From contig JAJPJN010000058.1 of the NCBI GenBank assembly GCA_021324185.1, positions 1 through 64,000 of the forward strand: a stretch of DNA of 64,000 bases. The letters are read 5' to 3'. The DNA comes from Terriglobia bacterium (lineage in GTDB: Bacteria; Acidobacteriota; Terriglobia; Bryobacterales; Bryobacteraceae). This document shows positions 25,356 to 56,164 of this stretch, in pieces. Below the pieces are notes generated by a model. That model did no database searches, was not told where the DNA came from, and saw only the letters and a list, made by a program, of their open reading frames with translations. Each line of letters begins with the position of its first letter. The stretch's first letter is position 1. Made by a program: the position numbers and the translations under genes.

Positions 25356-25566
25356 ACAATTGCTGTCCCACATCCGAACAAACATTGCGCCGCAAATTCA
25401 TAATGCGTTCTCGAAAGTTTTACGAACAGACCCGAACCGGCGCTGCTCCTGTTTCGTTAAACAACAATAGAACAGCCCGATGTAACATTCAGCCTTCACC
25501 AGAAACAATGGCCATCAGGATGCTCCGTACCGCATGGGTAGCGTAATTGATCAAAGGAGAGTATTC

Positions 25567-25974
25567 GTGAGCTTTAACAGAAAGCCGGTAGTAAGTAGTG
25601 CCTTACTTGCCGTTGCGTTTTGCTTTGCAGCCTCGCGCGCAGACGCGCAGAAGGGGATATTCGATCTGCCGGTCGAAGTACATTGGGGCTCAACAGTCTT
25701 GGAGCCGGGCGAATATACCGTCGATGTGCCGGTCTCACAACCATGGCCCCATCAGATTTATTTGATACACAACGGCAAACTGCTATCGATCGTTTTGCCC
25801 GAGATAGAGAACTCGGGCTTACAGTTTGACAGTAGCTGGTTGCACCTTGTGTCCGTGCACGGCGCATACTATGTGGAGAAATACGACTCGGCAGCAACGG
25901 GAAAAGAGTTCACGTTTTGGGTGCCTAAAGCAGAGCAGGGTGGCCTAACGATCAAAGTAAAGCATCAGTCCTGA
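25567..25974 (+). CDS. Small exported protein of unknown function
   Basis: A 135-residue protein with a signal peptide (SSALLAVAFCFAASRADAQ) and a compact beta-rich domain (VHWGSTVLEPGEYTVDVP, then GKEFTFWVPKAEQGGLTIKV). Small secreted proteins with this LxPGxYxV layout are frequent in Acidobacteria, without known role. GTG 25567 is chosen because AAAGGAGAG lies just before it. It is alone on its strand, convergent with the radical-SAM operon. Confidence 0.75.
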   Translation: MSFNRKPVVSSALLAVAFCFAASRADAQKGIFDLPVEVHWGSTVLEPGEYTVDVPVSQPWPHQIYLIHNGKLLSIVLPEIENSGLQFDSSWLHLVSVHGAYYVEKYDSAATGKEFTFWVPKAEQGGLTIKVKHQS

Positions 25975-26008
25975 TTTTCGCCCGGCGCTGCATGCCCCTG
26001 TGAGCGCT

Positions 26009-26983
26009 TCATTGCTCTACATACAAAGAGCAGACACATCGCTTGCAAGTGGGATTGCTCTCGACATCCAGGGATGCTCGAAACCGCTGCGCTTCGAACC
26101 CGTTCAATACTTGCAACAAAGTGTGTGTTCGCAACGATCCTATGGGTGCATGGAAGAAGCAAGGCCGCACAGCCCCCGTAGCTTCAATTACTGCCGATTT
26201 CCAAGGCGCATTGCACCTTGGAGCCACCGGCTTACAGATGCCCAACTGAGCTTTAAAATGAGTAACAATTCGCTGCAACTTGTCGCGGTCTTCTAAGACA
26301 AAAGCTGTGGCGGCCCAGGTTTTCTGCAGCCCGTCGAACTCCCGTTCGAGAGTTTCGATCTCTTCCGCCGATAAGGCGATCTGGCTCTGGCGATTTTCAT
26401 CCCAGGGCTCTAATCGATTAAACGCTTCCGATTTCAAATCGGCCGCCAGGTAAGAAATGGAAGTAAGGCCAAGTTCTTTGGCCGCCCAGGCCGTATTCTG
26501 TACATACGAATGATTTCGTTTCTGCAATGTACAACGCGCTGAAATTGGGAGCAGCGGGTTGTAATGCTTCACTTCCCGAATGCCCTGCTGGAGTGTCGAA
26601 AACGCCGCGGGCACTCGTCTGATCGCGTCGTGAACAGCGGCCGGACCATCTAGCGAAACGATAACGTCATCAACTCCAGCCGCCAGCGTCTGCGCATTTT
26701 TCTTCAGTAACAAGCCGGTACTAAGAACCGTCACCCGGATCTGCCTCTCTCTCAACATCCGGGTCAGCCGGAAAAGATCCGAATGCATCAGGGGTTCTCC
26801 TCCTGAAAACACAACCCATTTCACCTGAAGTTGTTCGATTGCGGCGAGATGCGATTCAAGCTCTCGCGCGCTGATCTCGTTTGCCTCGGTATCCTTCCAG
26901 ATATCGCACATTAGACAGCGGCAATTGCAGCGCGAGTGTGCATAAAGAACAAGAATTGGCAAAGACTGAACGTCAGGCGTCAT
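26009..26983 (-). CDS. Radical SAM/SPASM-type protein, last gene of the radical-SAM operon
   Basis: A 324-residue radical SAM enzyme. The [4Fe-4S] motif is C-x3-C-x2-C at Cys19, Cys23 and Cys26 (SRCNCRCLMCDIW), followed by FSGGEPLMH (SAM-contacting GGE) and the TIM barrel. The C-terminal part has CNAPWKSAVIEATGAVRPCF and CKRCVCS, a SPASM-like auxiliary cluster region. Such proteins act on peptides or small molecules. The start ATG 26983 overlaps the upstream amidohydrolase by 11 bases. Substrate unknown. Confidence 0.87.
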   Translation of the reverse strand: MTPDVQSLPILVLYAHSRCNCRCLMCDIWKDTEANEISARELESHLAAIEQLQVKWVVFSGGEPLMHSDLFRLTRMLRERQIRVTVLSTGLLLKKNAQTLAAGVDDVIVSLDGPAAVHDAIRRVPAAFSTLQQGIREVKHYNPLLPISARCTLQKRNHSYVQNTAWAAKELGLTSISYLAADLKSEAFNRLEPWDENRQSQIALSAEEIETLEREFDGLQKTWAATAFVLEDRDKLQRIVTHFKAQLGICKPVAPRCNAPWKSAVIEATGAVRPCFFHAPIGSLRTHTLLQVLNGFEAQRFRASLDVESNPTCKRCVCSLYVEQ

Positions 26984-28148
26984 GATGTAACTGTTTTCCG
27001 GCAAGTCTTGGTTCCCGGCCTGATATATGCCTTGTCTCATCTATCAAAGGCTTTATGGGATTCCGCAGGAAGTAGGTTCCACGGTTCTCAACCTGAAGCG
27101 GAAACGCGTCCTCGAATAGCTCACCAGGATCAGAGAGCGGAAAGTCCGCAGACACAAGCTCGATACGTCCGCGAACAATGACGAGTTGCGGACTAGCGCG
27201 AAGCAGAGTTTCCGCTGGGGTAAGGCCGTCATCGCGCATCACCAGCAAATCGGCCGGACCACCATAGCGAATTTCCCCATACCCCGGCGGTAGCTTTAGA
27301 ATCCGCGCCGCCATGCACGTTACCATGTCGTACAGTCGCTCAGCCGGAACCGCGTTATGCGCAACATGCAGTTCATCGAGTAGATCTCCTTTCGCCGTCA
27401 GAGCTGAATCCGTCCCCAGCGCAATAGGAACTCTGGCATTCAGTATTTCGCGGTCTAGACTGCACCCCAACGTGAAGTGATTGGAAGATGGACACCAAAC
27501 CAGAGAGCACCCGCCGTCTTCCACCCATTTCAATTGCTTTCTGCCAATCCCAACACCGTGGACCAGAACCGTTGAGGGCGTTAGTGCACCGCCACGGTTC
27601 AGAATGTCGATTTCTTTTCTCGCCGCCTCGTCTGTCCCTTCGGCAGCATGAATGAAGAAAGGAAATTTCTCCGGCGTTGCCTGGAATCGCTCGTGCCAAT
27701 CGCGGCAAAAGTGAAGCGAATGAGCCCATCCATAGCGAGTGAGCACTCGAATCGGCAGATTCTCGCGGTTCGCGGCTGAAGGTAAAGCGTTGTGCTGAGC
27801 AACCGTGGTTACACCAGAAAGTAAATTCTTTGTAGCTCCCCACCGGAAACGGGCGCGTTTGGGTACGGCGCGTTGTTCTTCGATCGAAGATTTATATGCG
27901 TAGTGAATATCTTCGGCCCACGCTGTTGCATTGGGATAAATAGCGCGCCCCAACCTTGGGAACAGATTCAATTCAAGATGATCGTGAGCGTTAATCAGAC
28001 CGGGCAAGATCAGAAAACCGCTCAAATCAAGCACGCGCTGCTTCGAATCAGATATTGCCGAAAAGAAAACTCTACCTCGGCTTAGCCATAGATCCACTGC
28101 CTTCGCGTCCCGTGCATTCACGGCAATCCGGGTGCCGGTAATTTTCAC
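26973..28148 (-). CDS. Amidohydrolase family protein (ATZ/TRZ-like)
   Basis: A 391-residue metal-dependent hydrolase, probably a deaminase or amidase acting on a ring or amide C-N bond. Metal ligands are visible: NAHDHLELN (HxH), IHAAEGTDE, LVHGVGI and LGTDSALTAKGD (final Asp). The typical beta-sandwich ends flank the barrel. The GTG at 28148 overlaps the stop of the preceding methyltransferase in GTGA and is my preferred start; TTG 28160 is an alternative. Its presence among radical-SAM and methyltransferase genes suggests it removes an amide or amino group from the pathway intermediate. Confidence 0.85.
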   Translation of the reverse strand: MKITGTRIAVNARDAKAVDLWLSRGRVFFSAISDSKQRVLDLSGFLILPGLINAHDHLELNLFPRLGRAIYPNATAWAEDIHYAYKSSIEEQRAVPKRARFRWGATKNLLSGVTTVAQHNALPSAANRENLPIRVLTRYGWAHSLHFCRDWHERFQATPEKFPFFIHAAEGTDEAARKEIDILNRGGALTPSTVLVHGVGIGRKQLKWVEDGGCSLVWCPSSNHFTLGCSLDREILNARVPIALGTDSALTAKGDLLDELHVAHNAVPAERLYDMVTCMAARILKLPPGYGEIRYGGPADLLVMRDDGLTPAETLLRASPQLVIVRGRIELVSADFPLSDPGELFEDAFPLQVENRGTYFLRNPIKPLIDETRHISGREPRLAGKQLHHDA

Positions 28149-28819
28149 AATTTTTCCCAAAGCGCGATAAATAGCGCGCGCGGCATCGTCGCGGCCCGAA
28201 ACGAGTCAAACTTACCCGCCTCCCTAAAGATCGGCAACTCTGCCTGGCCCAACTGTGGCTCAATCCGCTGCCGCAAAATCAAGCCTGCTTGGAATCCGGA
28301 ATCTGTCACCTGCTGGATCGAATGGCGAAAGTGCTCAATTTCATAAAGGGTGCCGTCGGATTTGAATGATCTTGTCCAGCCGCTTGCAATCGCATCGGGA
28401 TGTAAATCACTGACAACCAGGAATCCGCCGCGCCGGGTTACACGAGCGAACTCTCGAAAAATACTATGTGGATTTTCGAAATAGCCCAGCGACATCGAGC
28501 AAATAATCAGGTCTGCCCAGCTATCTCGAAACGGTAACAAGTGTGCATCTCCTAAGACCAAACGCCCGGATAAGCCTGTGCGACTCCTGGCTTGTTGCAG
28601 CATCGCCTCGCAAGCATCCAAACCGGCTACCCTTGCACCTGTTTCTCGAAAGTGCTCCAGCCATTCGCCTGTTCCACACCCGACGTCGACCACATTCTGG
28701 AAATTCAGTCCTTTTAGTACCGCTGTCACCATTCGTCTTTCCAGAGCGACTAATGGATTGGGCATCGAATCATAGAACGGCGCCCAGATCTTATGCGCCT
28801 CGAGAGCCGGCAGCCGCAT
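28145..28819 (-). CDS. Class I SAM-dependent methyltransferase
   Basis: A 224-residue methyltransferase of the UbiE/type 11 kind. SAM motif I is VVDVGCGTGEWLEHF, the acidic loop is VAGLDACEAML, and motif IV region is DLIICSMSLGYFEN. It resembles small-molecule methyltransferases, not DNA or RNA ones. The start ATG 28819 shares a base with the stop of the upstream radical-SAM gene (TGATG). An open frame further upstream overlaps that gene and is rejected. Confidence 0.88.
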   Translation of the reverse strand: MRLPALEAHKIWAPFYDSMPNPLVALERRMVTAVLKGLNFQNVVDVGCGTGEWLEHFRETGARVAGLDACEAMLQQARSRTGLSGRLVLGDAHLLPFRDSWADLIICSMSLGYFENPHSIFREFARVTRRGGFLVVSDLHPDAIASGWTRSFKSDGTLYEIEHFRHSIQQVTDSGFQAGLILRQRIEPQLGQAELPIFREAGKFDSFRAATMPRALFIALWEKL

Positions 28820-30285
28820 CACAGACTTTCCAATCGCGGTTTTCGCAATGCCAGCAGGCGCTGCGCCCACTGCAGTTCCTTCGGGTAGCCATAGAAGCCA
28901 AGCAGATAACGCCAGCCGCTCAGCCCCTGAAGTATCGCTCGCCCCCACCGCGGCAGATGAATATCCTGGATAGTCGGCCATCGCGAGTTGACCACCATCT
29001 CGAAATTGTCGATGCGATGCTTCAGACGTCGCGGCAGCCAGGCCACATTCGGATCATGTCGTGTCGTGAAGTTATACCATCGTTCTGTCGCCCACTCCTC
29101 CGGTGTTCGAGGAAACTCGATCTTTGTTTCTACCTCGCCGTACATCCCGTCAGGATGCGGCGTCGGAATGTAGTGCTGTACGATAATTTCCGCATCGGGA
29201 TTAATCCGCTTGATGCGGCGAATAAAGCGAATAGTTTCGAACGTATCCCGTTCTGGATCTTTCGGGTTTCCTACAACGAAAGAGAACTCCGGCACAATGC
29301 CGAATTTCCGAATCCGTTCCGCCAGACACAACGTCTGACCCGTATTCACTTTCTTATTCATCTGCTCGAGAACCCAGTCCGAGCCTGATTCGGCGCCAAA
29401 GAAAATCATCGTCGCGCCGGACTTCCTCAACAGCCGCATGGTGTCGTCTGAATATCGAAGCACTGCATCGATGCGGCCTTCACACCACCACTTCAGCCCT
29501 AGCGGTTCGATCGCCGCAGCTAGCTCAGCCGAGTGGCTCTCGTTCAGGAAAAAGTTATTGTCGTAAAACTGTACCGAATCGATGCTGTACTTCTGCTTCA
29601 GATGAGCCAGCACCGCGGCAGTTCGCTTTGGCTCCTCTGTACGTTGACGTCCTTTATATATAGGCACCACGCCGCAAAACGTGCAACGAAACGGACACCC
29701 GATGCTCGCTTGATGAACCACGGTCCGCTTGCCGAGAAAGGTCGGCATGATGTATTTCTCGGCATTTGGAAGACGGCCATACGGCAGCCACGGAAAATCA
29801 TTCGGTGAGCGCAGCGGCCGTTCTGCGTTGTGTACGTGCAGGCCAAAGTCGTCCTTGAATGATAGCCCTTTCACGCCTGCAAACCGTCGCGTCGTTCGCA
29901 GTGCTTCGATCAATTCAAGAAAAGTTTCCTCGCCTTGCCCGCGAACGACGAAATCGACATAGCGGGCATTCAGCGCGGCATCAGGGTAGAGCGAAGGGAA
30001 GTAGCCGCCCCAGACAATCGGTACTCGAGGATATTTCGAGCGAAATTCGCGGCACAATGGAATAGCTGCTACCATCTGCGGCCCCGGCATAACCGAAACC
30101 GCCAGAAGAGTAACATCGGCGCCGCGTGCCAGCTTGTCCAAAGTTACACCCGGCTGAGGATCAGCATTTCCATCCACAATGGCGTACTCGTCCTTTCCTT
30201 CAAGAACGGCTGCCAGAGAAAGAACCGCCAGCGGAAAACGCCGGTTTTTCGGCTTAGTCGATCGAGGATGCAGCAGGATGATCAT
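28819..30285 (-). CDS. B12-binding-domain radical SAM protein (BchE-like)
   Basis: A 488-residue protein with an N-terminal Rossmann-like cobalamin-binding domain (residues about 1-130: RFPLAVLSLAAVLEG, PIVWGGYFPSLYPDAALN, DFVVRGQGEETFLELIEAL) and a radical SAM barrel with C-x3-C-x2-C at Cys197, Cys201 and Cys204 (SIGCPFRCTFCG). A C-terminal DUF4070-like or helical tail follows. The DxHxxG cobalamin motif is absent, as in BchE-type proteins. Members methylate or cyclise unreactive carbons. It overlaps the upstream methyltransferase gene by 32 bases. Confidence 0.88.
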   Translation of the reverse strand: MIILLHPRSTKPKNRRFPLAVLSLAAVLEGKDEYAIVDGNADPQPGVTLDKLARGADVTLLAVSVMPGPQMVAAIPLCREFRSKYPRVPIVWGGYFPSLYPDAALNARYVDFVVRGQGEETFLELIEALRTTRRFAGVKGLSFKDDFGLHVHNAERPLRSPNDFPWLPYGRLPNAEKYIMPTFLGKRTVVHQASIGCPFRCTFCGVVPIYKGRQRTEEPKRTAAVLAHLKQKYSIDSVQFYDNNFFLNESHSAELAAAIEPLGLKWWCEGRIDAVLRYSDDTMRLLRKSGATMIFFGAESGSDWVLEQMNKKVNTGQTLCLAERIRKFGIVPEFSFVVGNPKDPERDTFETIRFIRRIKRINPDAEIIVQHYIPTPHPDGMYGEVETKIEFPRTPEEWATERWYNFTTRHDPNVAWLPRRLKHRIDNFEMVVNSRWPTIQDIHLPRWGRAILQGLSGWRYLLGFYGYPKELQWAQRLLALRKPRLESL

Positions 30286-31081
30286 ACGCTGTGGGCCTTC
30301 CGATCAGAATCCAGAATCTCGATGGAGGTCTGCGCTTGTGAAGCAATGCATTCAGCGGCCGGAGATGCCACCGCCATCCATACCAAGGCTTCAGGATCTG
30401 CCACCTAACGGCTAGATCTTTCGCCAGGTTTTTAAGCATGGTTGGATCAAGAAATTCCATATTCGGCAGCGCGTCTGAAGCAAAGCCGTACTTTTTCAAA
30501 AAATGAGCGCGCTTCTCCTCAACCATACGCATCCCGTGTTCTCGCCTCCGATAGATAGGCGAATCCAGAACGACGATGACCCCTCCTGCACGTAAGCACC
30601 GCCGCGCCTCCGACAAAGTTTGCACATAGTCGACTGAGTAATGAAGTGAAGCATTGAACACGACTATGTCAAACGCCTTCGCGGCAAATGGCAGGTGGTC
30701 GAATTCCGCCTCAACGGCCGGAAATTGCACTGGATAATGTCGTGCTGCCCCCAAACCGTCTCGTCCATCCAAAAAAATGTCCAGGGCTACAGGGCGATGC
30801 TGGCGAAGCGACAGGCGATAACATAACCAACAGTTTCCGGCCCCCAAATCCAACACACGAAGCGGCCGTCCCTCTCGCCTTTCGAGAACTTTCAATATGT
30901 TTTTTTCAAAGTAGCGGTACGTTTGAGCCCGTATAGCCCACATGGCACTGTTTCTGCCGGTACAATCAGAAAACGGCAATGCGCGGTAATAGTTACTATC
31001 CTCCGAACCGCGCCCTTCGGCATGCCGTATGTGTTTGTACTCTTCTAGAAATTGTTGACGCGCCAGTGCCCAGTCATTCAT
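30254..31081 (-). CDS. Class I SAM-dependent methyltransferase
   Basis: A 275-residue methyltransferase with motif I RVLDLGAGNCWLCYRLS, acidic loop VALDIFLDG and FDIVVFNASLHYSVDY. The N-terminal 70 residues form a helical cap. It has a C-terminal extension rich in Arg and Trp (WYGWRWHLRPLNALLHKRR), which could contact a lipid or membrane, as inference only. The start ATG 31081 overlaps the previous stop in ATGA; the 3' end runs 32 bases into the next radical-SAM gene. Confidence 0.87.
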   Translation of the reverse strand: MNDWALARQQFLEEYKHIRHAEGRGSEDSNYYRALPFSDCTGRNSAMWAIRAQTYRYFEKNILKVLERREGRPLRVLDLGAGNCWLCYRLSLRQHRPVALDIFLDGRDGLGAARHYPVQFPAVEAEFDHLPFAAKAFDIVVFNASLHYSVDYVQTLSEARRCLRAGGVIVVLDSPIYRRREHGMRMVEEKRAHFLKKYGFASDALPNMEFLDPTMLKNLAKDLAVRWQILKPWYGWRWHLRPLNALLHKRRPPSRFWILIGRPTAYDHPAASSID

Positions 31082-31809
31082 ATACGTCGCCAGATATAGA
31101 GTTGGTGGTCGGCAATCGAGCGGAAGACCGGCCAGGATGCCAGCTTGCTGTCTAGAGCCGCTAACATGGCAAGCACCGGTTGGCTAAAACTTCTGACATA
31201 AGACGGCGGGACTGTTACGCCAATACCGGATTGCCTACAAAGAATGAATTTATCTTGAAATGCCTTGAGTATGGCTCGTCTGGAGTGGTAGAAAACCTCG
31301 ATCCTGTATGAAGATTGTGCGCGCCCCGAAAGTCTTCGCAGCGCCTTTGTGAAATCTCCTCGCAGAAGATAATATCCGATCTCCCATAAGCAAATCCGGC
31401 CCAGGAAACACAATGCTACAAAGCCGCCGGGTCGAATGAGCCGGCCTAGTTCTCCGGCTATCGGCTGAATCGACTTCACGCAATTCAGCGCTCCGAAATT
31501 CGAAATCGCGCCGTCAAAGCAGCCGCCGAGATCACACAACTGCTCTATGCTGTGGACGTGAGCATCGATCCCCTTGGCGCGCGTGATGCGTACCATTTCC
31601 GCGGAACTGTCAATTCCGTGAACGTGGATGCCGGCTTGTCGCAGGTGAACAGCATCCGCTCCCGTTCCGCATCCGGCGTCAAGCACTACCGCACCCGGTT
31701 GAAAAAGAGGATCTATCAATTTCCACACCGCCTGTCGCTGCAAATCGCCAACGGAAGTTTGCGTCCAAAGCGTGTCGTAAAACGGCGCGATGCTATCAAA
31801 GCCAGTCAT
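31078..31809 (-). CDS. Class I SAM-dependent methyltransferase
   Basis: A 243-residue methyltransferase starting MTGFDSIAPFYDTLW. Motif I is VVLDAGCGTGADAVHLRQAG, with the acidic residue in IDSSAEMVRI and GAISNFGALNCV in the motif IV position. It is a different subfamily from the two other methyltransferases of the operon, so three distinct methyl transfers, or three similar reactions on different intermediates, may occur. It begins 16 bases after the BchE-like gene upstream, the only clear gap in the operon. Confidence 0.87.
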   Translation of the reverse strand: MTGFDSIAPFYDTLWTQTSVGDLQRQAVWKLIDPLFQPGAVVLDAGCGTGADAVHLRQAGIHVHGIDSSAEMVRITRAKGIDAHVHSIEQLCDLGGCFDGAISNFGALNCVKSIQPIAGELGRLIRPGGFVALCFLGRICLWEIGYYLLRGDFTKALRRLSGRAQSSYRIEVFYHSRRAILKAFQDKFILCRQSGIGVTVPPSYVRSFSQPVLAMLAALDSKLASWPVFRSIADHQLYIWRRI

Positions 31810-31825
31810 TCGGAACTTCCCACGC

Positions 31826-33172
31826 TCAGGCTTCCACCTCGTAGCGTGTCTCCTCCAGCCCGCGGCGGGCCGCCGCAGTTATCACCGGATCGGCCGCGGG
31901 ACGCAATTCGTTTTTCAACAGTTCATCGGCATATTGGTAAAAGCGCCTTGAATGTCTGCCCTTAATTCGAATGTCACGGTCAGTGCTTTTGTTCCACTCG
32001 CCCACCCGAACCAATCGGGAAGCTACTCGCTCGTAATATGGCGTTCCCTTGATCGGATAAGAAACCGTGGTGAAACAAACATCCGGCTGGCATTCTTTTG
32101 CATGCTGAATGGTTTTCTCTATATCCTCGATTTCCTCGCCCTCGTATCCCCACATCAGAAACATTCCCGTTTGGATGCCATGCCCTTTGCAAAGCCGCAC
32201 GGCCGAACGCACCTGCTCTATGGTTACTTGCCGTTGCATTGCGTCTAATATCCGTTGCGATCCGCTTTCAGAGCCGATCCACACACGAAAGCACTTCAGT
32301 TCCGCGAGAGTCGCCGCGACACGGCTATTAAGACGATCCGCACGTGTGATGCACTCAAACGGGATTACTAGATTTCTTTTTTGCATCTCGGCCGCGTACT
32401 CGAATAACCAGCCGTGATGAATTGTGAAAACATCATCCGCTAACCACAGCATGTCGGGCTGATAACGTTCTCGAATCCATTCGATTTCATCGACCACCGC
32501 ATGCGGCGACCGGCGGCGGTGCGTCGTGCCGTATACCGAATGGCTGCACCAGTTGCACTTGTAAGGGCAGCCCCGCGCTGTAATAAGCGAAATGGAGCCC
32601 TGTCCATGAAAACTGCGCCATGTAGTGAGATAGCGGTCAATATTGATGCGTTCGCGATCCGGCCAAGGCTGGGCGTCAAGATCCCTAATAAGAGGAGCCG
32701 GAGCTGTACGCTGCACATGACCATCAGGGCCAAAGTAAATCAGCCCCCCAATATCCCCCCAGCGGCTTCGGTCAAAGGAACACCGCAACAGTCGTTCCAG
32801 CGCGAGTTCTGCTTCGCCGGCAATAACAAGATCGGCGCCCGCTTCCAGATATTGCTCGGCATAGTTGGCCGGTTCCGGTCCACCAACGATGACGTTCCAT
32901 CCAGCCGCACGGGCGCAAGCGATGATATCGAGGGCCGTAATCCGGGTCATCAAGTTTGCGTAAATGCCGATCGTGGACGGCGGACTCTGCTGTAACAGGT
33001 CGAAAAGTTCTTTTTTCGATCCGAATGTCGAATCATAAATCTCGACATCGAAGCCTTGCTGGCGCAGATGGGAGGAAAGATAAAGAAGGCCCAATGGGGC
33101 ATAGGGCTTCATGATTTGTTGTTCTTTTGGATCTTCGAACAAAAAGTAGGCATGCGTCAGAAGCAGGTTCAT
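31826..33172 (-). CDS. B12-binding-domain radical SAM protein (BchE-like)
   Basis: A 448-residue protein: cobalamin-type N-terminal domain (APLGLLYLSSHLRQQGFDVE, IVGGPEPANYAEQYLEAGAD) and radical SAM barrel with Cys202, Cys206 and Cys209 (ARGCPYKCNWCS). The barrel ends GSESGSQRILDAMQ, which is also present in the next gene upstream, so the two look like tandem paralogues. ATG 33172 overlaps the upstream stop in ATGA and starts at the conserved MNLLLTHAYF; an upstream in-frame start would add seven unconserved residues. Confidence 0.88.
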   Translation of the reverse strand: MNLLLTHAYFLFEDPKEQQIMKPYAPLGLLYLSSHLRQQGFDVEIYDSTFGSKKELFDLLQQSPPSTIGIYANLMTRITALDIIACARAAGWNVIVGGPEPANYAEQYLEAGADLVIAGEAELALERLLRCSFDRSRWGDIGGLIYFGPDGHVQRTAPAPLIRDLDAQPWPDRERINIDRYLTTWRSFHGQGSISLITARGCPYKCNWCSHSVYGTTHRRRSPHAVVDEIEWIRERYQPDMLWLADDVFTIHHGWLFEYAAEMQKRNLVIPFECITRADRLNSRVAATLAELKCFRVWIGSESGSQRILDAMQRQVTIEQVRSAVRLCKGHGIQTGMFLMWGYEGEEIEDIEKTIQHAKECQPDVCFTTVSYPIKGTPYYERVASRLVRVGEWNKSTDRDIRIKGRHSRRFYQYADELLKNELRPAADPVITAAARRGLEETRYEVEA

Positions 33173-34569
33173 GGAAGGACCGCCTCCTCGCATAGAGACG
33201 CTGCCTTCATTGCATCCACCTGCGCCCAGGCATTCTTAATGTCGCCCGCACTCTCCGGATGACGAACCTCGAGGTGGATGGCGTCCGTGATCGCACGATA
33301 AAACTCTGTAGAGTAAGTGCCGCGAAACATCATCGTGAGGTCGCCGCTATCCGCCCAGTGTTTCTTTTGACCTAACTGCGTGGATACGAGTTGGTGAAGC
33401 TTCGTTCCGGGAAGCGGATAAGTGATCGACACCCCAACCTGGTCCGGTTTGCCCTTTCGCAGCATCTGAATCGTTGACTCGATATCTCGCCAGGTTTCAC
33501 TCGGATATCCCAACTGAAGAAACCATCCCGTACGGATCCCGTTCCGGCGCAGATTGTCTGTGGCCTGTAGGATCTGTTCCACCCGCGTCCCTTTGTCCAT
33601 CGCATCCAGAATGCGCTGCGAGCCGGATTCGGCCCCCATCCACACTTCCTGGCAGCCGGCCCGCTTCAAATCGGCAACCGCCTCGCGGGTCATCAGATCA
33701 CAGCGAGACTGCATCTTGAACGGTGTGTGCGCATTCATCTCTTCCACCGCTTCTGCAAACTCGCGGGTCCAGCGGGCGGAAAGCGCGAAAATATCATCCG
33801 CGAACCATAGATGGTCCGGCGTATAGCACGTCTTGAGATAAAGCATCTCTTCGGCGACCGATCGTGCCGGGCGCGCGCGATAGCTGTTTCCGTAAATCGG
33901 CTTGGCACACCAGTTACACCGGTAAGGGCAACCACGGCTCGATACCACATTCATAGAAAAAAATCCGTGGTAGCTGAGCCACGTCTTTCGATACGGCTCC
34001 ATCTCAATGAGATCCCAGGCCGGCCGCGGCAGATGATCGAGCTGTTTGCGAAGCGGGCGTGGTGCCGTGCGGCGCGTTTCGCCGGCGTGGTCGCGGTAAA
34101 CCAATCCCGCAATTCGATCAGGCTCTACTCCCCTGGCGAGCTCTACCAATGCCTCTTCTACTTCGCCAATAACGACGTAGTCGAAACCTGCATCCATGTA
34201 GGCGCCGCTTTGATCCGTTGCATCCGATCCGTGCACTGCCACCGTGCAGCCGTACGCGCGCGCGACTTTCGCCATCCAAAATGCCAGCTCACGGTTGCGG
34301 GACAAGCACATCTTGGTCACAAAATGAAAATCGTCCTCACAAACCACAACTAACGATGGCGACTCGCGTTTCAATACTTCGATGAATGTCGCTTCGGGAT
34401 CGCTTAACGCGATGTCGCAAACACCAACAGTTACACTCGCTTGCCGCAATGCCGCAGCCGCCAGCAGTGTTTGAAGAGGCGGATAAGGTTCCATCTTCTT
34501 GGACTGCTTCTCGTCATAAAAAATATGATTGCTGTGAGTAAGCAGCACATCAATGTGTCGCCGCAGCAT
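33169..34569 (-). CDS. B12-binding-domain radical SAM protein (BchE-like), tandem paralogue
   Basis: A 466-residue paralogue of the gene that follows it. The N-terminal domain opens HIDVLLTHSNHIFYDEK and has VAVHGSDATDQSGAYMDAGF; the cluster cysteines are Cys214, Cys218 and Cys221 (SRGCPYRCNWCAK). It also contains GAESGSQRILDAMDKG. The start ATG 34569 shares a base with the stop of the small upstream gene (TGATG). Shared openings (LLTH.., then MxPYxPL) support duplication with later divergence, perhaps for successive reactions on the same product. Confidence 0.88.
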   Translation of the reverse strand: MLRRHIDVLLTHSNHIFYDEKQSKKMEPYPPLQTLLAAAALRQASVTVGVCDIALSDPEATFIEVLKRESPSLVVVCEDDFHFVTKMCLSRNRELAFWMAKVARAYGCTVAVHGSDATDQSGAYMDAGFDYVVIGEVEEALVELARGVEPDRIAGLVYRDHAGETRRTAPRPLRKQLDHLPRPAWDLIEMEPYRKTWLSYHGFFSMNVVSSRGCPYRCNWCAKPIYGNSYRARPARSVAEEMLYLKTCYTPDHLWFADDIFALSARWTREFAEAVEEMNAHTPFKMQSRCDLMTREAVADLKRAGCQEVWMGAESGSQRILDAMDKGTRVEQILQATDNLRRNGIRTGWFLQLGYPSETWRDIESTIQMLRKGKPDQVGVSITYPLPGTKLHQLVSTQLGQKKHWADSGDLTMMFRGTYSTEFYRAITDAIHLEVRHPESAGDIKNAWAQVDAMKAASLCEEAVLP

Positions 34570-34769
34570 CAACGTGCCTTCTTCGAGTGCTGCTGCAGCG
34601 GCTGCTTCTCAACCGGCGCAGCTACATCATTGCCATACTGTTGCGTTAGAGCAATATCTTCCTCGCACAACAGAAGAAATAGAGTGGAGTCCAGCAAGTC
34701 ATACGCTCGAAGTTCCGACAATATGGCCGGCGCCCAGATAAAGCTCTTGAATGGCACGCCGGTCAACAC
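34569..34769 (-). CDS. Small 66-residue protein within the radical-SAM operon, unknown
   Basis: I do not recognise this gene. The start (GTG 34769 or TTG 34766) overlaps the stop of the upstream radical-SAM gene by 4-7 bases, and the stop overlaps the next start in TGATG. Such exact coupling on both sides supports a real gene. The product opens MLTGVPFKSFIWAPAILSEL and has an acidic, leucine-rich middle and a Gln/Lys-rich tail. There is no signal peptide and only one Cys. It could be a carrier, an adaptor or a substrate peptide, but nothing in the sequence decides this. Confidence 0.6.
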   Translation of the reverse strand: MLTGVPFKSFIWAPAILSELRAYDLLDSTLFLLLCEEDIALTQQYGNDVAAPVEKQPLQQHSKKAR

Positions 34770-36286
34770 GTCACCACCTCGTTAGATAAAAGCTGGGCAT
34801 CCACTTTCGGCTTGCTCGCCGGAAAAAGTTTGTTGGCCTTGTCTTTAAGCCACAGTTCAACCGGGGTCGAATAGACGTTGTGATCCAATCGCCACCGCGC
34901 CGGAAGGCTAATCGCCCGATGCACGATCCGGTTCACCACGTGTTTTTTTTGCACCCCAATAGGAACGCGATTGAAAGCCACCCGCAGATACTCACGCATC
35001 CGTTGAACGCGCTCGTGCTGGGCTCCTTTCAACCACGGCAGAACCGTATAGCGAGGAAAAAAGCTGGCCCAACCCTCGAATGTTTTTGGCACCTGAATGC
35101 CCAATTCAAACGCCCGCTCCATAATCGGCGCACCCGGATAGGGCGTAAAAATATTTGTCCAAAACTCAGCCGCCGGGTAGCGCCGGCAGATGTTCATGAT
35201 GAGTTGAATGGATTCGCGCCGTTCAACCTCGGTCTCACCCGGGAAGCCAAAAATCATATTGAAGGAGGGCCGAATTCCCGCCTGGCTTAACTTCTCAGCA
35301 GCGTCGTAGATCGTTTCAAGCTTTTGAAAATCCTTGTTCATGAGGTGAAGGATCTTCTTAGAGCCTGAATCAGCTCCTTGGGCTACCTGAGTTAAACCCG
35401 CCCGCCGAAGTAACTTCAGCTCTTCTACGGTAAGTCGCGTAACAAGATTTGTAGAGGCCTGAATGCTCCACTCGAACTGCACGCCGGTACGGATCAGTCC
35501 TTCTGCTATGTTTACCGCCCGATCCCGATCCACCAAAAAATTGTCATCGACAACCCAAAGAAGCCTAAGACGATATCGGCTAACTAAGTCCGATACTTCC
35601 TCGACAACCTGATCCGCCTCCAGGGCATTCCACTTACGGCCGTATAAGCCGTCGTTCGTACAATAAGCGCAGTTAAAGGGACACGCCAGGCTCGACGTAT
35701 ACATGGCCCACCGCCGGCCACATATGCGCTCATATGCGTCGAAATCAGCGAGGTGATATGCCTTTGGCGGCAGTTCTCGTATCGGCTTTAAAGCGCGCGA
35801 AGGATTAAAAACAAGCCTGCCGTTTTCCTTGTACCCCACGCCAGCAATACCCTTCATAGACTCGCCCGCCTCAATATGCTGGACAATTTCGAGTAACGCG
35901 TCTTCGCCTTGACCCTTAACAACTACATCGACATCCGGACATGCTAACGTCTGGTCGGGCAGTAGCGAAGGATGCCAGCCGCCCAGAATTACCGGCTTAT
36001 CTGGATACAGTGCCTTGGCCGCTTTGGCAATCTGTGCCGTTTCACGTATCATCGGCCCTGTAACAAGCGATACGGCAAGACACAGCGATGTCCCCAGTTC
36101 AGCTAACACGCGTTCCTGAAAGTTAGGCGTGATCGTCGAGTCAATGATCTTTACTTCGTATCCCGCTCTAAGGAGCGGTGTTGCAACGGCCAGAATCGCT
36201 AAAGGCGCGGTAGCTTCCTGGCTTGAAAACGCAGGGAAAAAAAACAACACCTTTTTACTTTTCTTCAGCGGTTGGCTTCTTAGCAT
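34763..36286 (-). CDS. B12-binding-domain radical SAM protein, first gene of the operon
   Basis: A 507-residue protein with an N-terminal cobalamin-type domain (APLAILAVATPLLRAGYEVK, VILGGWHPSLLPDQTL, VDVVVKGQGEDALLEI) and radical SAM cysteines Cys202, Cys206 and Cys209 (LACPFNCAYCTND). It continues with a helical C-terminal region. The architecture is that of BchE/HpnJ-like enzymes. ATG 36286 is chosen because the conserved domain starts right there. The frame stays open to 36565, but those 93 residues overlap the Wzi-like gene and look unconserved. It is preceded by 157 bases that may hold the operon promoter. Confidence 0.86.
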   Translation of the reverse strand: MLRSQPLKKSKKVLFFFPAFSSQEATAPLAILAVATPLLRAGYEVKIIDSTITPNFQERVLAELGTSLCLAVSLVTGPMIRETAQIAKAAKALYPDKPVILGGWHPSLLPDQTLACPDVDVVVKGQGEDALLEIVQHIEAGESMKGIAGVGYKENGRLVFNPSRALKPIRELPPKAYHLADFDAYERICGRRWAMYTSSLACPFNCAYCTNDGLYGRKWNALEADQVVEEVSDLVSRYRLRLLWVVDDNFLVDRDRAVNIAEGLIRTGVQFEWSIQASTNLVTRLTVEELKLLRRAGLTQVAQGADSGSKKILHLMNKDFQKLETIYDAAEKLSQAGIRPSFNMIFGFPGETEVERRESIQLIMNICRRYPAAEFWTNIFTPYPGAPIMERAFELGIQVPKTFEGWASFFPRYTVLPWLKGAQHERVQRMREYLRVAFNRVPIGVQKKHVVNRIVHRAISLPARWRLDHNVYSTPVELWLKDKANKLFPASKPKVDAQLLSNEVVTC

Positions 36287-36443
36287 GCCGCGGATTTCCC
36301 CAACAGGCCGTTTCCAGATGAATCCGTGCGGGACATTACGCCCAAGTATGGAAGTGTGCGGCGGGCGGATGTGTTCAGGAAAAGTAAACAAGTCGTAAAC
36401 GTTAGGCCAGATGCGAAATCGAGCAGGTGCAAAATCGAGAGGA

Positions 36444-38114
36444 TCACTTCCGAACCGTCCAGTTTTTTGGATTGAATGTAAATTGCAAACTGGCGGATAC
36501 GTTGGTCTGAGGACCGCCCAGGACAGGAATAAAATACCTTTCAAACTGCACGAACGCCGTCGCATTCAACTGGGGTCCCACTTGCCATTGCCCGCTGAGG
36601 CTCACATCCGTTTGCGTTCCGCCGCCCGGCAAGAAAATGCCCCCCGTTTTGATCTGTCGGGCCGACAATGAGATTTTGTCCTTAGACGTTTTCCAATACG
36701 TCACCGATCCCTGATAAGCACGCGCATCTCGCCCCACCCAGCTACCCATCAGTAACCCGTCATTTGTGTAGGCATCACGGTACTGGTTGTTCCAATAGAA
36801 AAACTTGCCACCTTCGTCGCCTCAATACAACAACGTGGAATACGTTTCAAACCGAAAGTCCATATGCGGTAGACCCGGCAGTTGAGTCAGATATAAGCCC
36901 GGTCCCCAAGCGGACCGCCTCGGCGCATCCAGCGGATTGGGTTCATCGTCTGCAAAAGAATCCGAGTAAATCGTCACGAAGCGGCGCAATCCCGGCACGC
37001 GCCATTTGAAGTCAAATCCACTACGGCGATCGCCCGGATCATTCGCCGATCCAAACGCCGTGTTGCCGGTGCTCGCAACGCTGAAAAAGCTGTTGACAAT
37101 GCTCGAAACGGTTAGTGGATGACCAACGCCGCCGAAAATGCTGCTGCGAGTAAAGCCTAGCTCCAGGTTTTCAGTAAGCTGAAAAGTAATCTTTTGAGCA
37201 TTAATAAACGGTCTTGGTGGAAACTTATGGCCGGATAGTTTACCCACTAAGAACTGGGTTCGAACGTGGCCAAGAAATCGAAACGGTCCCGGTAAAACGA
37301 TCGGTTGTTCTTGATCCACCCTCAACGCGTAAAAGGGCGCCGCGTTGTCGCTAAAGGTAAACGCGCTGTCCTCTCCGGGTCCCCACCAGATGCTCTGCCT
37401 GCCGAAGGTGACATTGAAGTTTCCCAAGGTGGCTCCTACATACATCTCAACTGGGCTGAATTTGCTCACCGACGGCACGATTGCCGGGGCTTGCGGAGGC
37501 AGGCCGTCTAAAGTCCCAATCAATGTGCGCAGACTCTCGTCATACGGGCCCGCGCCGCCCGCCCTCTGATACTCGCCGCGAAAATAACCGGAAAATCGCC
37601 CCAAGGTGCCGAACGCCGAAAATCCGTCAACGGTATTCGCCCCTTCTCCGTAAGGTCGTCCAAAATCATTCGTCAAAGTCTGGCCAAAATGGTAGCTATC
37701 CCGCAACGGTGCCCCCGAAATCTGTTCAACGCGCGTGTAAATAGATGCGACCCTCATCTCAGCTCGGACGGGTTTCAGGTTGAGGAACTCCTGTTTCAAC
37801 GCCGAGAGCAAACGAAGCGCTTCTGCATTTGTGCTCGGCGCGGACACCTGTTCGCTATGTCGCGATGCGATGTCCTCCGCTTCCTCTAAAAAAGCTACAC
37901 ACTGGGCACGTGTCCACGGGGCGGCCAACCCTTCCAAATCCGGTACATACCCCATCGCCGCCAATCGCTTCAGGGCAGAGTAGATCCAACTGTCTATCGA
38001 AACGTACACCGGCCCCGACGCCGCTGGCTTGGCGTCGCTAGCCGCAGCTCGCACGGCCGTTAATAGAAGACACGCTGACAAAATTCCCATCGCGTGCAAT
38101 CTCCTGACCTGCAT
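36444..38114 (-). pseudogene. Wzi-like capsule assembly/outer-membrane protein, interrupted by stop codon
   Basis: A 556-codon gene for an outer-membrane barrel of the capsule assembly (Wzi) family. Signal peptide (MGILSACLLLTAVRAAAS), helical N-terminal region, then barrel strands such as VEMYVGATLGNFNVTFGRQS and SIWWGPG. At 36822-36824 an in-frame TGA follows YSTLLY. Without any frame change the reading continues GDEGGKFFYWNNQYRDAYTN and ends normally at 36444 with SLQFTFNPKNWTVRK. A CGA-to-TGA change would explain it. The truncated product would lose the last 126 residues of the barrel. It may be real decay or a sequence error. The export operon lies divergently upstream. Confidence 0.85.
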
Positions 38115-38248
38115 ACTAACCGTCGATTATGCAGCCTAGATTGTCAAAGGTCGTCGCATAGTTGTGAACAACTTGCGAAAGTTGTCAGGTCGAAAATGGC
38201 CGAAACTCCGTAACGCCCCCGCGTATTGCACACACTATCCATCAAGCC

Positions 38249-38265
38249 GTAAAAGCCTTGTAAAA
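38249..38265 (+). promoter_or_regulatory. GTAAA 11-bp direct repeat before the polysaccharide export operon
   Basis: GTAAAAGCCTTGTAAAA: two GTAAAA units exactly 11 bases apart, 65-80 bases before the Wza-like start, in the 212-base region shared with the divergent Wzi-like gene. A -10-like CATAAC lies about 8 bases after the second unit. This is the usual position for an OmpR/PhoB-type activator replacing the -35 element. The same region also has the palindrome GTTGTGAACAAC at 38161-38172. Confidence 0.5.
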
Positions 38266-38329
38266 ACCGTCCACATAACTTGAAACACTCTGGAATTCCT
38301 CCACTTACGACGGCACAATAGCTCAAGTG

Positions 38330-40954
38330 ATGCAGCGCGCGCGAATGTTTGCAAGTGAGTCCGGCTCTTTCTGCGCGAGTCTTTTTATACCTCTGCTGGC
38401 CGCAGCGGCCGTGATCACAGGGGCCACTCCACTATCTGCACAAGTGCCGGATTTCGTACCCCCAAACCAGTTACGGCAGTCGCAATCTGGAATCATCTCT
38501 GGTCAATCCACGCAGCCTCGAGCGTGTACGCCCGCCGATTATGGCGATCCCACAGCCGAATGCGTTCCTGCACGCGGGCAATCGGCCTACAATCCCTACG
38601 GCAATCTGAATGTCGCGGGCTATGGCGCAGCCTCCCGGCAGGAGCCACATCTGCCTTACGATGACCCGTTTTATCCCGCAACTGACACACCCTTGCTGAG
38701 ACCCGCGAATCCCTCCTCCAATTACTCCATGCCGGCTCAGTCCCCCGTGTACTTCGACAAAGAGGCCCCGACTGAGTTTCAGCGATACGTAGCTGCTTCC
38801 ATCGGCAAAATACTTCCCCTCTTCGGTGCGTCGCTTTTTGAAAAAGTCCCCGCAACGTTTGCTCCATTGGACCGTGTACCCGTAGGAGCGGATTACTTAA
38901 TCGCGCCTGGAGACGAATTACAAATCAGCGTGTGGGGACAACTCAATCTGTCACGCCGCGCATTTGTCGACCGCACAGGTATAGTTACTTTACCTGGTAT
39001 CGGACCCATTACATTGGCGGGACTCACTTATCCACAAGCGGCAGATGCTGTGAAAGTCGGTCTTTCACATCTCTACAAAGGCTTTGAAGTCAGCGTCGCA
39101 TTAGGCCGCCTTCACTCAATCCAGATATTTGTACTTGGCAACGCGCGCAGGCCCGGCAGCTACACGGTCAGTTCACTTAGCACGCTAGTAAATGCGATCT
39201 TCGCATCGGGCGGTCCCTCTGCACGAGGGTCCATGCGTTCCATCCAGCTCAAGCGGGGGAATACGGTTATTCGGGATTTCGATCTATACGACCTGCTGCT
39301 ATCCGGAGACAAATCCAAAGACGCCCAGCTCGCTCCCGGAGACGTCATTTTTATCCCTCCTGCGGGCCCTCGCGTCGCGTTAGCCGGCAGTGTGGAAAAT
39401 CCCGCCATCTATGAAATTAAGCCAGGCACAACACTGCATGAAGTTCTGAATCTCGCCGATGGGCCATCTCCTCTTGCTTCGTTCAAGTCAATTCGTTTAG
39501 AACGAATTGACGCCAATGCAAATCTTCACGCTCTCGACATCTCCCTCAACCAGAACGGGCTCAAGACTCAGTTGCAAAACGGTGACGTCATTCGCGTCAT
39601 GCCGTTGGTCCCCAAATTCGACAATGCCATCACCTTGAAGGGAAATGTCGCAGATGCCGGCCGGTTTCCATGGAAAAAAGGCATGCGGCTCAGCGACTTG
39701 ATTCCCGACAAAGAGTCGCTGCTCACCAGGGACTATTGGAACCAACATAATGCGTTAGTTACTCCGGTAATGGCCAGCTCCGAAAATAACACCAGCGGCC
39801 TCAATAACCAATCGCCGTCGATGTCAACTGACGCGGCTCAACACACTGGACCGAACTTCAAACCAACTACCGCCACCTCCTTTCAGGAGCAACAGAGAAA
39901 TGCGAGAGGAGATTCGTCGCTCGCGGCCGCCACAGAGCTGGACGATACGCCGCCCCTACGCACCTTTAAGCCTGTTAATGACGTTCAACCCATCGCGCCG
40001 GAAATCGACTGGCATTACGCGGTGCTCGAACGCCTCGACAGAAGCACTCTCGAGACCCGCAAGATCCCGTTCAATCTGGGAAAGCTGGTATTGGAGCATG
40101 ATCAGGCGGAAAATCTGCTACTGGAACCAGAAGACGTTATCACCATCTTTTCTAAAGCCGATTTCTCTGTTCCCATATCGCAACAAATGACCGAAGTACG
40201 AATCGAAGGAGAAGTGGCCATGGCCGGCGTTTACTCGGTTCGCCCGGGAGAAAAGTTACGGGAGGTTATTGCGCGCGCCGGTGGCCTCACCACCAACGCG
40301 TATCTCTACGGGGCGCAATTTACTCGCGAGTCCACACGGCGTGAACAGCAGAAACGCTACGAAGAGTTTTTAAATGATTACGAGCGGGAAGCGAACCAGG
40401 CCGCCGCCAACTTATCCAGCCGTGTTACATCGCCCCAGCAAGCGGCAACCGCCCAGGCTTCCATCGCGAGCCAGCGCGAACTGGTAGAAAAGCTTCGTAA
40501 GGTCTCTATGGATGGGCGCATCGTTCTCGATATGAACCCGAACGCCCGCGGCTTAAATGCAATACCGGATCTACCGCTTGAAAATGGCGACCGTTTATAT
40601 ATTCCCAGCCGCCCGGTAACTGTCAACGTGATGGGAAATGTCTTCGAGCAGGCCTCCTTTATTTATCAGGAGGACTTTCGCAGCGCCGATTATCTCAAGA
40701 AAGCTGGCGGGCCTAGCCGGGATGCTGATCGCAGCCATATGTTCGTAATTCGGGCCGACGGCTCTATCGTCAGCAAGACCCTCTCAGCGCCGCTTTTCGC
40801 AAATAGCTTTGAGTCGCTTCATATCTATCCTGGAGACACCATTGTCGTCCCTACACGCCTCAATCACGCTACTTTCTTGCGCACCCTGACGGACTGGTCG
40901 CAAGTCTTTGCCAATTTTGGGTTGGGAGCCGCGGCGATCAACGTCCTGCATTAG
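38330..40954 (+). CDS. Wza-like polysaccharide export protein with SLBB domains
   Basis: An 874-residue outer-membrane exporter. After a signal peptide (LLAAAAVITGATPLSAQ) and a Pro-rich stretch comes a polysaccharide export domain (DYLIAPGDELQISVWGQLNL with GIVTLPGIGPITLAGLTY). Several SLBB domains follow (FVLGNARRPGSYTVSSLSTL, VALAGSVENPAIYEIKPGT, VRIEGEVAMAGVYSVRPGEK, VNVMGNVFEQASFIYQEDF). It is far longer than E. coli Wza (about 380 residues), because of extra SLBB units and a linker of low complexity around residues 480-540. ATG 38330 or 38345 may start it. The Wzz gene begins one base before its end. Confidence 0.9.
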   Translation: MQRARMFASESGSFCASLFIPLLAAAAVITGATPLSAQVPDFVPPNQLRQSQSGIISGQSTQPRACTPADYGDPTAECVPARGQSAYNPYGNLNVAGYGAASRQEPHLPYDDPFYPATDTPLLRPANPSSNYSMPAQSPVYFDKEAPTEFQRYVAASIGKILPLFGASLFEKVPATFAPLDRVPVGADYLIAPGDELQISVWGQLNLSRRAFVDRTGIVTLPGIGPITLAGLTYPQAADAVKVGLSHLYKGFEVSVALGRLHSIQIFVLGNARRPGSYTVSSLSTLVNAIFASGGPSARGSMRSIQLKRGNTVIRDFDLYDLLLSGDKSKDAQLAPGDVIFIPPAGPRVALAGSVENPAIYEIKPGTTLHEVLNLADGPSPLASFKSIRLERIDANANLHALDISLNQNGLKTQLQNGDVIRVMPLVPKFDNAITLKGNVADAGRFPWKKGMRLSDLIPDKESLLTRDYWNQHNALVTPVMASSENNTSGLNNQSPSMSTDAAQHTGPNFKPTTATSFQEQQRNARGDSSLAAATELDDTPPLRTFKPVNDVQPIAPEIDWHYAVLERLDRSTLETRKIPFNLGKLVLEHDQAENLLLEPEDVITIFSKADFSVPISQQMTEVRIEGEVAMAGVYSVRPGEKLREVIARAGGLTTNAYLYGAQFTRESTRREQQKRYEEFLNDYEREANQAAANLSSRVTSPQQAATAQASIASQRELVEKLRKVSMDGRIVLDMNPNARGLNAIPDLPLENGDRLYIPSRPVTVNVMGNVFEQASFIYQEDFRSADYLKKAGGPSRDADRSHMFVIRADGSIVSKTLSAPLFANSFESLHIYPGDTIVVPTRLNHATFLRTLTDWSQVFANFGLGAAAINVLH

Positions 40955-46877: not shown

Positions 46878-46884
46878 CAGGCTG

Positions 46885-55442: not shown

Positions 55443-55451
55443 ATTCCGAAG

Positions 55452-56162: not shown

Positions 56163-56164
56163 AT

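Follow-up and report, generated by a model that had tools for sequence, protein, structure and literature searches.

A conserved Acidobacteriota operon of cobalamin-type radical-SAM enzymes with a putative role in making a surface-linked molecule

The sequence analysed here, hereafter the window, comprises the first 64,000 nt of contig JAJPJN010000058.1 from a Terriglobia bacterium of the Bryobacteraceae (GenBank assembly GCA_021324185.1). On its minus strand, at 26009–36286, lies an operon rich in radical S-adenosylmethionine (SAM) enzymes, its genes lettered A to J, that is real and is kept together in many Acidobacteria. The gene set, its order and co-occurrence across genomes, a recurrent gene fusion, the predicted folds of the products G and I, and an enrichment of particular neighbouring genes were all observed; of these, order, co-occurrence, fusion and enrichment speak for a single pathway whose product goes to the envelope or is exported. 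Our favoured reading, to which we give a probability of roughly 55 %, is that the operon would encode a single conserved Acidobacteriota pathway for a radical-modified, methylated, glycosylated and surface-linked molecule, for which we infer the chemical steps, the substrate and the destination, taking the chemistry from the enzyme families. Four elements are new with respect to the original prediction for this stretch, which had proposed a ten-gene pathway: a fifth cobalamin-type radical enzyme in relatives (X), the doubtful status of B, partner genes of the HprK-like and NTP_transf_5 types, and an extra GTP cyclohydrolase II.

Gene content, order and conservation

Domains were called with Pfam and equivalogs with the curated cut-offs of NCBIfam, and for D, H and J the start was picked from relatives and from overlaps. 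The operon harbours the cobalamin (B12)-binding radical-SAM enzymes A (34763–36286, 507 aa, with its ATG at 36286; Pfam B12-binding 59 bits, Radical_SAM 81.7 bits), D (31826–33172, the sister clade of C) and G (28819–30285, 488 aa), together with C (33169–34572, 467 aa), an enzyme of the same type with a divergent N-terminal domain. Also present are three class I methyltransferases by Pfam, E (31078–31809), F (30254–31081) and H (28145–28819, 224 aa), an amidohydrolase of the deaminase branch, I (26973–28160), in which the HxH, H, E, H and D residues are kept, and a radical-SAM/SPASM enzyme, J (26009–26983; Radical_SAM 56.3 bits, SPASM 43.2 bits). Pfam agrees with the original prediction as to the single SPASM-like enzyme, the three methyltransferases and the amidohydrolase, and the overlaps of 1–32 bases that it had described between most adjoining genes were borne out, the exceptions being D and E, which lie 16 bases apart, and a 190-base interval between A and C that holds the 66-residue open reading frame (ORF) B (34569–34769, minus strand). 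None of the ten operon ORFs reaches an NCBIfam cut-off amongst the matches listed. No polyketide synthase or non-ribosomal peptide synthetase gene occurs in A–J or in the part of the window's other genes scanned with Pfam, and, as had been suspected, no standard biosynthetic class was recognised. A promoter and terminator scan of 25500–37000 returned 5 promoter-like and 14 terminator-like sites, against shuffle means of 7.6 and 12.7, respectively.

A profile of G run over GTDB species genomes yielded 523 stretches, of which the best 80 (loci L075–L154, a set biased to close relatives) are all titled as Acidobacteriota lineages, and 43 of these have enough flank for an order count. The strict order A-(X)-C-D-E-F-G-H-I-J is found in 26 of the 43, with the individual genes detected 40 (A), 26 (X), 39 (C), 40 (D), 40 (E), 34 (F), 43 (G, by construction), 42 (H), 35 (I) and 37 (J) times. 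Identity of A to its counterparts in L018 and L055–L058 is 84–87 %. More distant loci (L064, L070–L074 and L202–L208) contain part of the gene set in changed order, and I is undetected in several loci that retain radical enzymes (e.g. L119, L122 and L143).

Co-occurrence was assessed in a phylum sample of 297 genomes, with G at E ≤ 1e-90 and I at E ≤ 1e-40, and with the best 5 or 6 candidates per genome scored, such that absences may be misses. G is present in 24 genomes, I in 19 and both in 16, compared with approximately 1.5 joint occurrences expected (Fisher p 6e-18, kinship ignored); three genomes (G108, G125 and G189) possess I without G, and eight possess G without I. The G protein, searched in 60 genomes including its own, matched 13 at E ≤ 1e-40, two of them (G003 and G014) only to A, whilst protein P0007 at the same threshold has any match in 8 of 17 genus-g1 genomes (own included), six at ≥ 78 % identity. 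G and its neighbours also occur in named isolates (Edaphobacter, Granulicella, Terriglobus, Silvibacterium and KBS 96), and the operon is therefore open to experiment.

H and I share a single reading frame in 21 of 57 loci, one of these at a contig end, and I is separate in the remaining 36, H having been trimmed to its likely start. This fusion ties methyltransferase H to the deaminase-like I. The original prediction had set its single-pathway idea against the prospect of homologues scattered without conserved order; the opposite is seen, and order, co-occurrence and fusion together support that idea.

The proposed count of ten minus-strand genes stands for nine, the tenth, B, being probably not a gene. 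B has no Pfam or NCBIfam match and no tblastn match at E ≤ 1 in 216 loci, and it was rejected as a gene because it has no homologue. In many relatives its place between A and C is taken by X, a B12-binding radical-SAM gene of approximately 500 residues that was undetected in 17 of the 43 well-flanked loci. The window is without X at the A–C interval, and with G as the query no X-like match was found elsewhere in its genome, no search dedicated to X having been made. It is possible that B is a decayed X: DNA of the A–C gap aligned to X of four relatives scores best for L055 (43, against a shuffle maximum of 39), and for the other three the scores are never above the shuffle maximum.

Predicted folds and nearest relatives of the enzymes

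By their domains, A, C, D and G are members of the cobalamin-type radical-SAM superfamily, with a weak B12-domain assignment for C. Pfam B12-binding is above its cut-off in A, D and G and below it in C (27.4 vs 32.1 bits), a Radical_SAM domain is present in all four, and the CxxxCxxC motif is intact in these and in J; in G its cysteines (C197, C201 and C204) are invariant in alignments of 16 and of 44 sequences. The description of these four proteins as BchE-like holds for this layout, thus at the superfamily level only, and fails for BchE itself. For each of the four, BchE or HpnJ is the top curated model, both sub-threshold, at 106.8–134.2 bits (cut-off 481.35) and 98.5–131.9 bits (cut-off 577.6), respectively, and the AprD4 model gives at most 94.9 bits against a cut-off of 500. 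Membership of the bacteriochlorophyll, hopanoid and ladderane enzymes was ruled out, the scores lying under the curated cut-offs. A tree built from 67 proteins gives one clade for each of G, C and D and places A and X as sister clades, with the exception of three distant rows that fall outside them (A of L071 and L073, and X of L074); the separate clades that had been suggested as a check on the four radical enzymes are hence recovered, with A beside X.

These scores also bear on an alternative in which the enzymes would modify a membrane lipid of hopanoid, ladderane or branched type, methylating carbons or closing rings by radical chemistry. Unusual membrane lipids are a known trait of the Acidobacteria, the better-scoring NCBIfam models for A, C and D include HpnJ and rSAM_ladder_B12, and the best solved relative of H is phosphatidylethanolamine N-methyltransferase (50 bits), with D-glucose O-methyltransferase third (40.5 bits). 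The lipid-family models are nevertheless far under their cut-offs, presence inside a single genus is patchy (the 8 of 17 genomes given above), and no lipid-synthesis gene was recognised amongst the neighbours scanned, a PhyH-domain gene near L200 and L201 aside, such that a lipid product appears improbable.

The AlphaFold model of G (mean predicted local distance difference test score, pLDDT, 91.6) is predicted to possess a full-length B12 radical-SAM fold, aligning over its whole length with AprD4 (Z 28.3), OxsB (27.1), MgmA (25.9), TsrM (24.9) and CysS (24.6), whilst the top Foldseek match by E-value is MgmA. For D, the best solved relatives are MgmA (56.5 bits) and AprD4 (54.6 bits). Sugar deoxygenation of the AprD4 type is a mere lead here, and was kept as such because few structures of the superfamily are solved, AprD4 among them, OxsB trails it by 1.2 Z and MgmA comes first in Foldseek. 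With respect to cofactor supply, a B12-dependent methionine synthase domain is present in the genome of the window and a BtuR-type adenosyltransferase was not found there; other adenosyltransferase types exist, so the latter absence is uninformative.

The best solved relative of J is the cytosylglucuronate decarboxylase BlsE (68 bits), which acts on a cytosine nucleoside, followed by MoaA (26 bits). SPASM and B12 radical-SAM enzymes are common maturases of ribosomally synthesised and post-translationally modified peptides (RiPPs), and a peptide substrate must accordingly be weighed. On the lasso peptide pseudomycoidin, a kinase works jointly with a nucleotidyltransferase (PMC8498205). On the other side, the 80 loci and the window contain no family of short ORFs extending beyond five close relatives (ORFs overlapping larger ones being dropped), B is without a homologue, and the ApyD and rSAM_ocin models are far under cut-off; maturation of a RiPP is thus very unlikely.

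The residues H59, H61, H171, E174, H201 and D251 of I are invariant in 50 sequences, and in the deaminase branch of the amidohydrolases the HxH, H, H and D residues are metal ligands, accompanied by the glutamate of an HxxE motif. In its model (pLDDT 94.1), I appears closest by Z to adenosine-type deaminases, its neighbours being 4gbd (35.7), TM0936 (1p1m; 35.6), 4dyk (35.0), 4f0s (34.9) and 4dzh (34.4), and then 3hpa and 3lnp; TM0936 is a deaminase of methylthioadenosine (MTA) and S-adenosylhomocysteine (SAH). The NCBIfam model PRK07228 gives 36 bits on I against a cut-off of 522.

From this it may be argued that I is no pathway step, and instead deaminates SAH, MTA or 5′-deoxyadenosine, clearing the by-products of its neighbours. 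We regard this as a tentative possibility, and a minority one. All seven best neighbours by Z (34.4–35.7) are titled adenosine deaminase, a homologue thereof, or TM0936, a profile search ranks 4dyk, 4gbd, 3lnp and 4f0r first, and I is fused to a methyltransferase in the loci counted above. Moreover, by-products of this type inhibit SAM enzymes (PMC10986504). Conversely, the top Foldseek match of I by E-value is triazine hydrolase, isocytosine deaminase (Z 33.0) and triazine hydrolase (Z 32.3) are only 2–4 Z lower, the genome already has SahH and PNP_UDP_1-family enzymes, and some loci with radical enzymes, again L119, L122 and L143, have no detected I.

Surface-polymer neighbours and an extra GTP cyclohydrolase II

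Polysaccharide genes occupy 36444–47574 of the window, encoding Wzi, Poly_export, Wzz, a Wzx-type protein, two GT4 glycosyltransferases and a bacterial sugar transferase. The nearest part of a capsule gene, the C-terminal part of Wzi (36444–36749), begins 158 bases from A, in keeping with the distance of under 160 bases reported originally. This wzi gene (36444–38114, minus strand) is itself split by an in-frame TGA into 36822–38114 and 36444–36749, reflecting either a nonsense mutation or an assembly error. Further along is a tight four-gene cluster (53185–56818, minus strand), consisting of an NTP_transf_5 nucleotidyltransferase (53185–54441; Pfam 111 bits), an HprK-related kinase-like protein (54438–55442), a RibB-like 3,4-dihydroxy-2-butanone-4-phosphate (DHBP) synthase (55452–56162) and a RibA-like GTP cyclohydrolase II (56165–56818), the third copy of the latter in this genome. 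GTP cyclohydrolase II makes a precursor of vitamin B2. The kinase assignment is weak (Hpr_kinase_C 28.7 bits, under the cut-off of 33.3), and the protein has no NCBIfam match at E ≤ 1e-15.

With window proteins as queries, we compared 588 kb of flanking sequence at the 80 loci with 796 kb of control sequence, taken as 40 evenly spaced stretches from two genomes that carry the operon. Polysaccharide-type genes number 33 in the flanks, in 19 loci, and HprK-like or NTP_transf_5 genes 46, in 32 loci, both against 0 in the controls, whilst response regulator or histidine kinase genes number 21 against 7. Beside the operon, blastp homologues of the HprK-like protein are found at 23 of the 80 loci and of NTP_transf_5 at 19, and in KBS 96 (L076) J, the HprK-like gene and NTP_transf_5 overlap in a single run. 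In eight genomes of family f8 that have I (the family codes f1 and f8 are read as Bryobacteraceae-like and Acidobacteriaceae), NTP_transf_5 is single-copy and in all eight within 25 kb of I; in G004 and G024 it is also 4 kb away from G, and G000, G012 and G308 have it on the same contig, at a distance of up to approximately 25 kb. Two loci, L119 and L122, have a gene of the NTP_transf_5 cluster and a Wzx-type flippase between H and A. In distant families, operon genes sit among or beside epimerase, GT4, FkbM methyltransferase, PIG-L, Wzx or Wzy genes, and in L072 they are mixed with epimerase, GT4, FkbM methyltransferase, PIG-L and GNAT genes. The envelope link suspected at the outset is supported both by this enrichment and by the flippase placed within the operon of L119 and L122.

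On the favoured single-pathway reading, A, X, C, D and G would carry out methyl insertion, deoxygenation or rearrangement at unactivated positions of one small molecule, with J contributing a further radical step and E, F and H transferring methyl groups to the same molecule. I may act as a deaminase, on an intermediate or on SAM by-products that the pathway enzymes release. The HprK-like kinase, NTP_transf_5 and glycosyltransferases would then activate the product and attach it to a lipid-linked or surface glycan, which a Wzx-type transporter would flip outward. Leads as to the building block are a sugar (from the kinship to AprD4 and BlsE, and the polysaccharide genes), a lipid, or a GTP-derived pyrimidine (from RibA and the deaminase).

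Several observations weigh against such a pathway. Where at least 8 kb of flank is available (44 loci), homologues of the six polysaccharide queries from the window are absent from 28 loci, and 20 have neither HprK-like nor NTP_transf_5 genes. NTP_transf_5 is also present in 11 of 18 family-f8 genomes without G (profile A1 returned nothing at E ≤ 1e-60 in the search behind this figure, and the same profile matches 24 of the 297 phylum genomes), which rules it out as a strict marker of the operon. The nearest copy is 272 kb from I in G300, and in G001, G340, G262, G175 and G149 it resides on other contigs; in L107 the gene after J encodes a protein kinase. Three genomes with neither G nor I (G095, G206 and G254) keep NTP_transf_5 by cupredoxin and cytochrome c genes, two of them with an HprK-like gene, and these partners therefore also have a role outside the operon. 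As such, the HprK-like and NTP_transf_5 partners are part of a wider envelope module. Finally, the B12 radical-SAM proteins could catalyse unrelated reactions.

The RibA-like gene of the window introduces a further possibility, which refines the single-pathway reading and is not an alternative to it: a GTP cyclohydrolase II dedicated to the pathway, accompanied in some cases by DHBP synthase, may supply a GTP-derived precursor of pyrimidine or flavin type; I would deaminate the pyrimidine and the radical enzymes and methyltransferases would decorate it, such that the product would be a nucleoside-, pteridine- or flavin-like molecule, methylated, glycosylated, and secreted or mounted on the envelope. 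Amongst 24 genomes, GTP cyclohydrolase II is present in exactly two copies in all eight that lack G and I, and in three or four copies in 7 of the 16 that have G or I, the other nine, KBS 96 included, having two (Fisher p 0.03, from a small count of related genomes). In each of the seven an extra copy is near the operon: 20 kb off in G000, approximately 3 kb from J in G012, 2.4 kb upstream of A in G222 (L127), at the same 11.1 kb from I in G153, G214 and G222, and between E and C of a reduced operon in G108 and G189, the G189 copy carrying one stop. G108 and G012 each have one further copy. In a tree of RibA, the operon-linked copies fall into two clades, one of which also holds the unlinked G012 copy. 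Two independent recruitments of RibA are unsupported, as an approximately unbiased (AU) test does not reject one origin of the linked copies and the unlinked G012 copy (p-AU 0.24); the link between RibA and the operon is repeated whichever reading of the tree holds.

Also consistent with a GTP-derived precursor are the tight clustering of RibA, RibB, HprK-like and NTP_transf_5 genes in the window, the position of RibA in the E–C interval of L200 and L201, a flavin-reductase-domain gene that is the convergent neighbour of RibA in L118, the similarity of J to BlsE with its cytosine nucleoside substrate, and that of I, by Z, to nucleoside deaminases. Against this, RibA occurs in the flanks of only 3 of the 80 loci (L075, L118 and L127), versus 0 of 40 controls, and in the window it is 20 kb from the operon. 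No RibD-, RibH- or RibE-like gene was recognised amongst the neighbours scanned, and the nine genomes without an extra copy, the small number of related genomes and the lack of support for repeated recruitment count on the same side. Taken together, we consider a GTP-derived precursor rather unlikely. An extended version is more doubtful still, to the point of being a long shot: the dedicated GTP cyclohydrolase II would feed the synthesis of a pyrimidine-, pteridine- or flavin-like molecule methylated by radical chemistry. The HprK-like kinase would phosphorylate this molecule, NTP_transf_5 and glycosyltransferases would couple it, and Wzx would flip it for display on the envelope, where it would perhaps be redox-active beside the cupredoxin and cytochrome c proteins of some loci. 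If true, the result would be a surface glycoconjugate or extracellular cofactor of a new class.

A number of further features were noted around these loci. L200 and L201 carry a reduced cluster, NTP_transf_5-E-RibA-C-F-I, without G at the threshold used; UDPGT-type and GT87 glycosyltransferases follow it in L200, and the PhyH-domain gene mentioned above is nearby in both. The cupredoxin/cytochrome c/NTP_transf_5 module recurs in family f8 (L157 from G095, L158 from G206 and L159 from G254), with a large outer-membrane protein, and one of the three also has response regulator, histidine kinase and porin-like genes. In KBS 96, a cytochrome c domain is joined to a DUF5777 beta-barrel just upstream of A (L076 1056–2462), and the gene cluster holding this protein and another DUF5777 protein (L108) is represented at 9 of the 80 loci. 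A gene cluster with a P450-like representative (L151) is near the operon in seven of the 80 (L077, L084, L086, L089, L126, L139 and L151). The window itself contains a second amidohydrolase gene (60931–62178, plus strand), after a large outer-membrane barrel protein with a CarboxypepD_reg domain (57010–60927).

Acidobacteriota are among the commonest soil bacteria and, to our knowledge, few of their molecules have been described. The rules of cluster-finding programs are not known to cover pathways in which as many as five B12-type radical enzymes occur and no scaffold-making enzyme is recognised, and this one may therefore have been overlooked. In the open-licence full texts of PMC, no paper on the operon is apparent from titles and the openings of abstracts. 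From the shared neighbours it can be predicted that the molecule goes to the envelope or is exported, that its precursor may be GTP-derived in some lineages, and that H and I work together.

Comparison with known systems

AprD4, the radical-SAM diol dehydratase of apramycin biosynthesis (PDB 6fd2), resembles the model of G over its whole length (root-mean-square deviation 3.1 over 412 residues, at the Z given above), and, among solved structures, is the closest in sequence to C (82 bits) and to the G profile (71.7 bits). It differs in sharing just 19 % identity with G, in the small margin that separates it from OxsB, in ranking behind MgmA in Foldseek, and in that its NCBIfam model is far sub-threshold and is not the best curated match; nor was an AprD3-type reductase seen in the operon. 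The B12 radical-SAM methylases and ring-modifying enzymes OxsB, MgmA, TsrM, CysS and TokK have the same domain layout and fold, with cobalamin-bound OxsB aligning with the model of G over its whole length, but their identity to G in structural comparison is 16–19 %. Of the BchE, HpnJ and ladderane radical-SAM families (TIGR02026, TIGR03471 and TIGR04072), the first two provide the best-scoring curated models for A, C, D and G, yet these are far sub-threshold, and no bacteriochlorophyll or hopanoid gene was recognised amongst the operon neighbours scanned.

For I, the closest systems are the adenosine-type (MTA/SAH) deaminases (4gbd, 1p1m and 4f0r), which share its fold and metal-site pattern but are just 17–21 % identical to it. 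The partner genes, in turn, have a possible functional parallel in pseudomycoidin, where a kinase phosphorylates the lasso peptide and a nucleotidyltransferase then adds hexoses (PMC8498205). The operon differs in that no lasso precursor, protease or cyclase was recognised there; the likeness lies in a kinase and a nucleotidyltransferase joining forces to phosphorylate and then glycosylate a product, and by analogy the pair illustrates how the HprK-like and NTP_transf_5 proteins could operate together.

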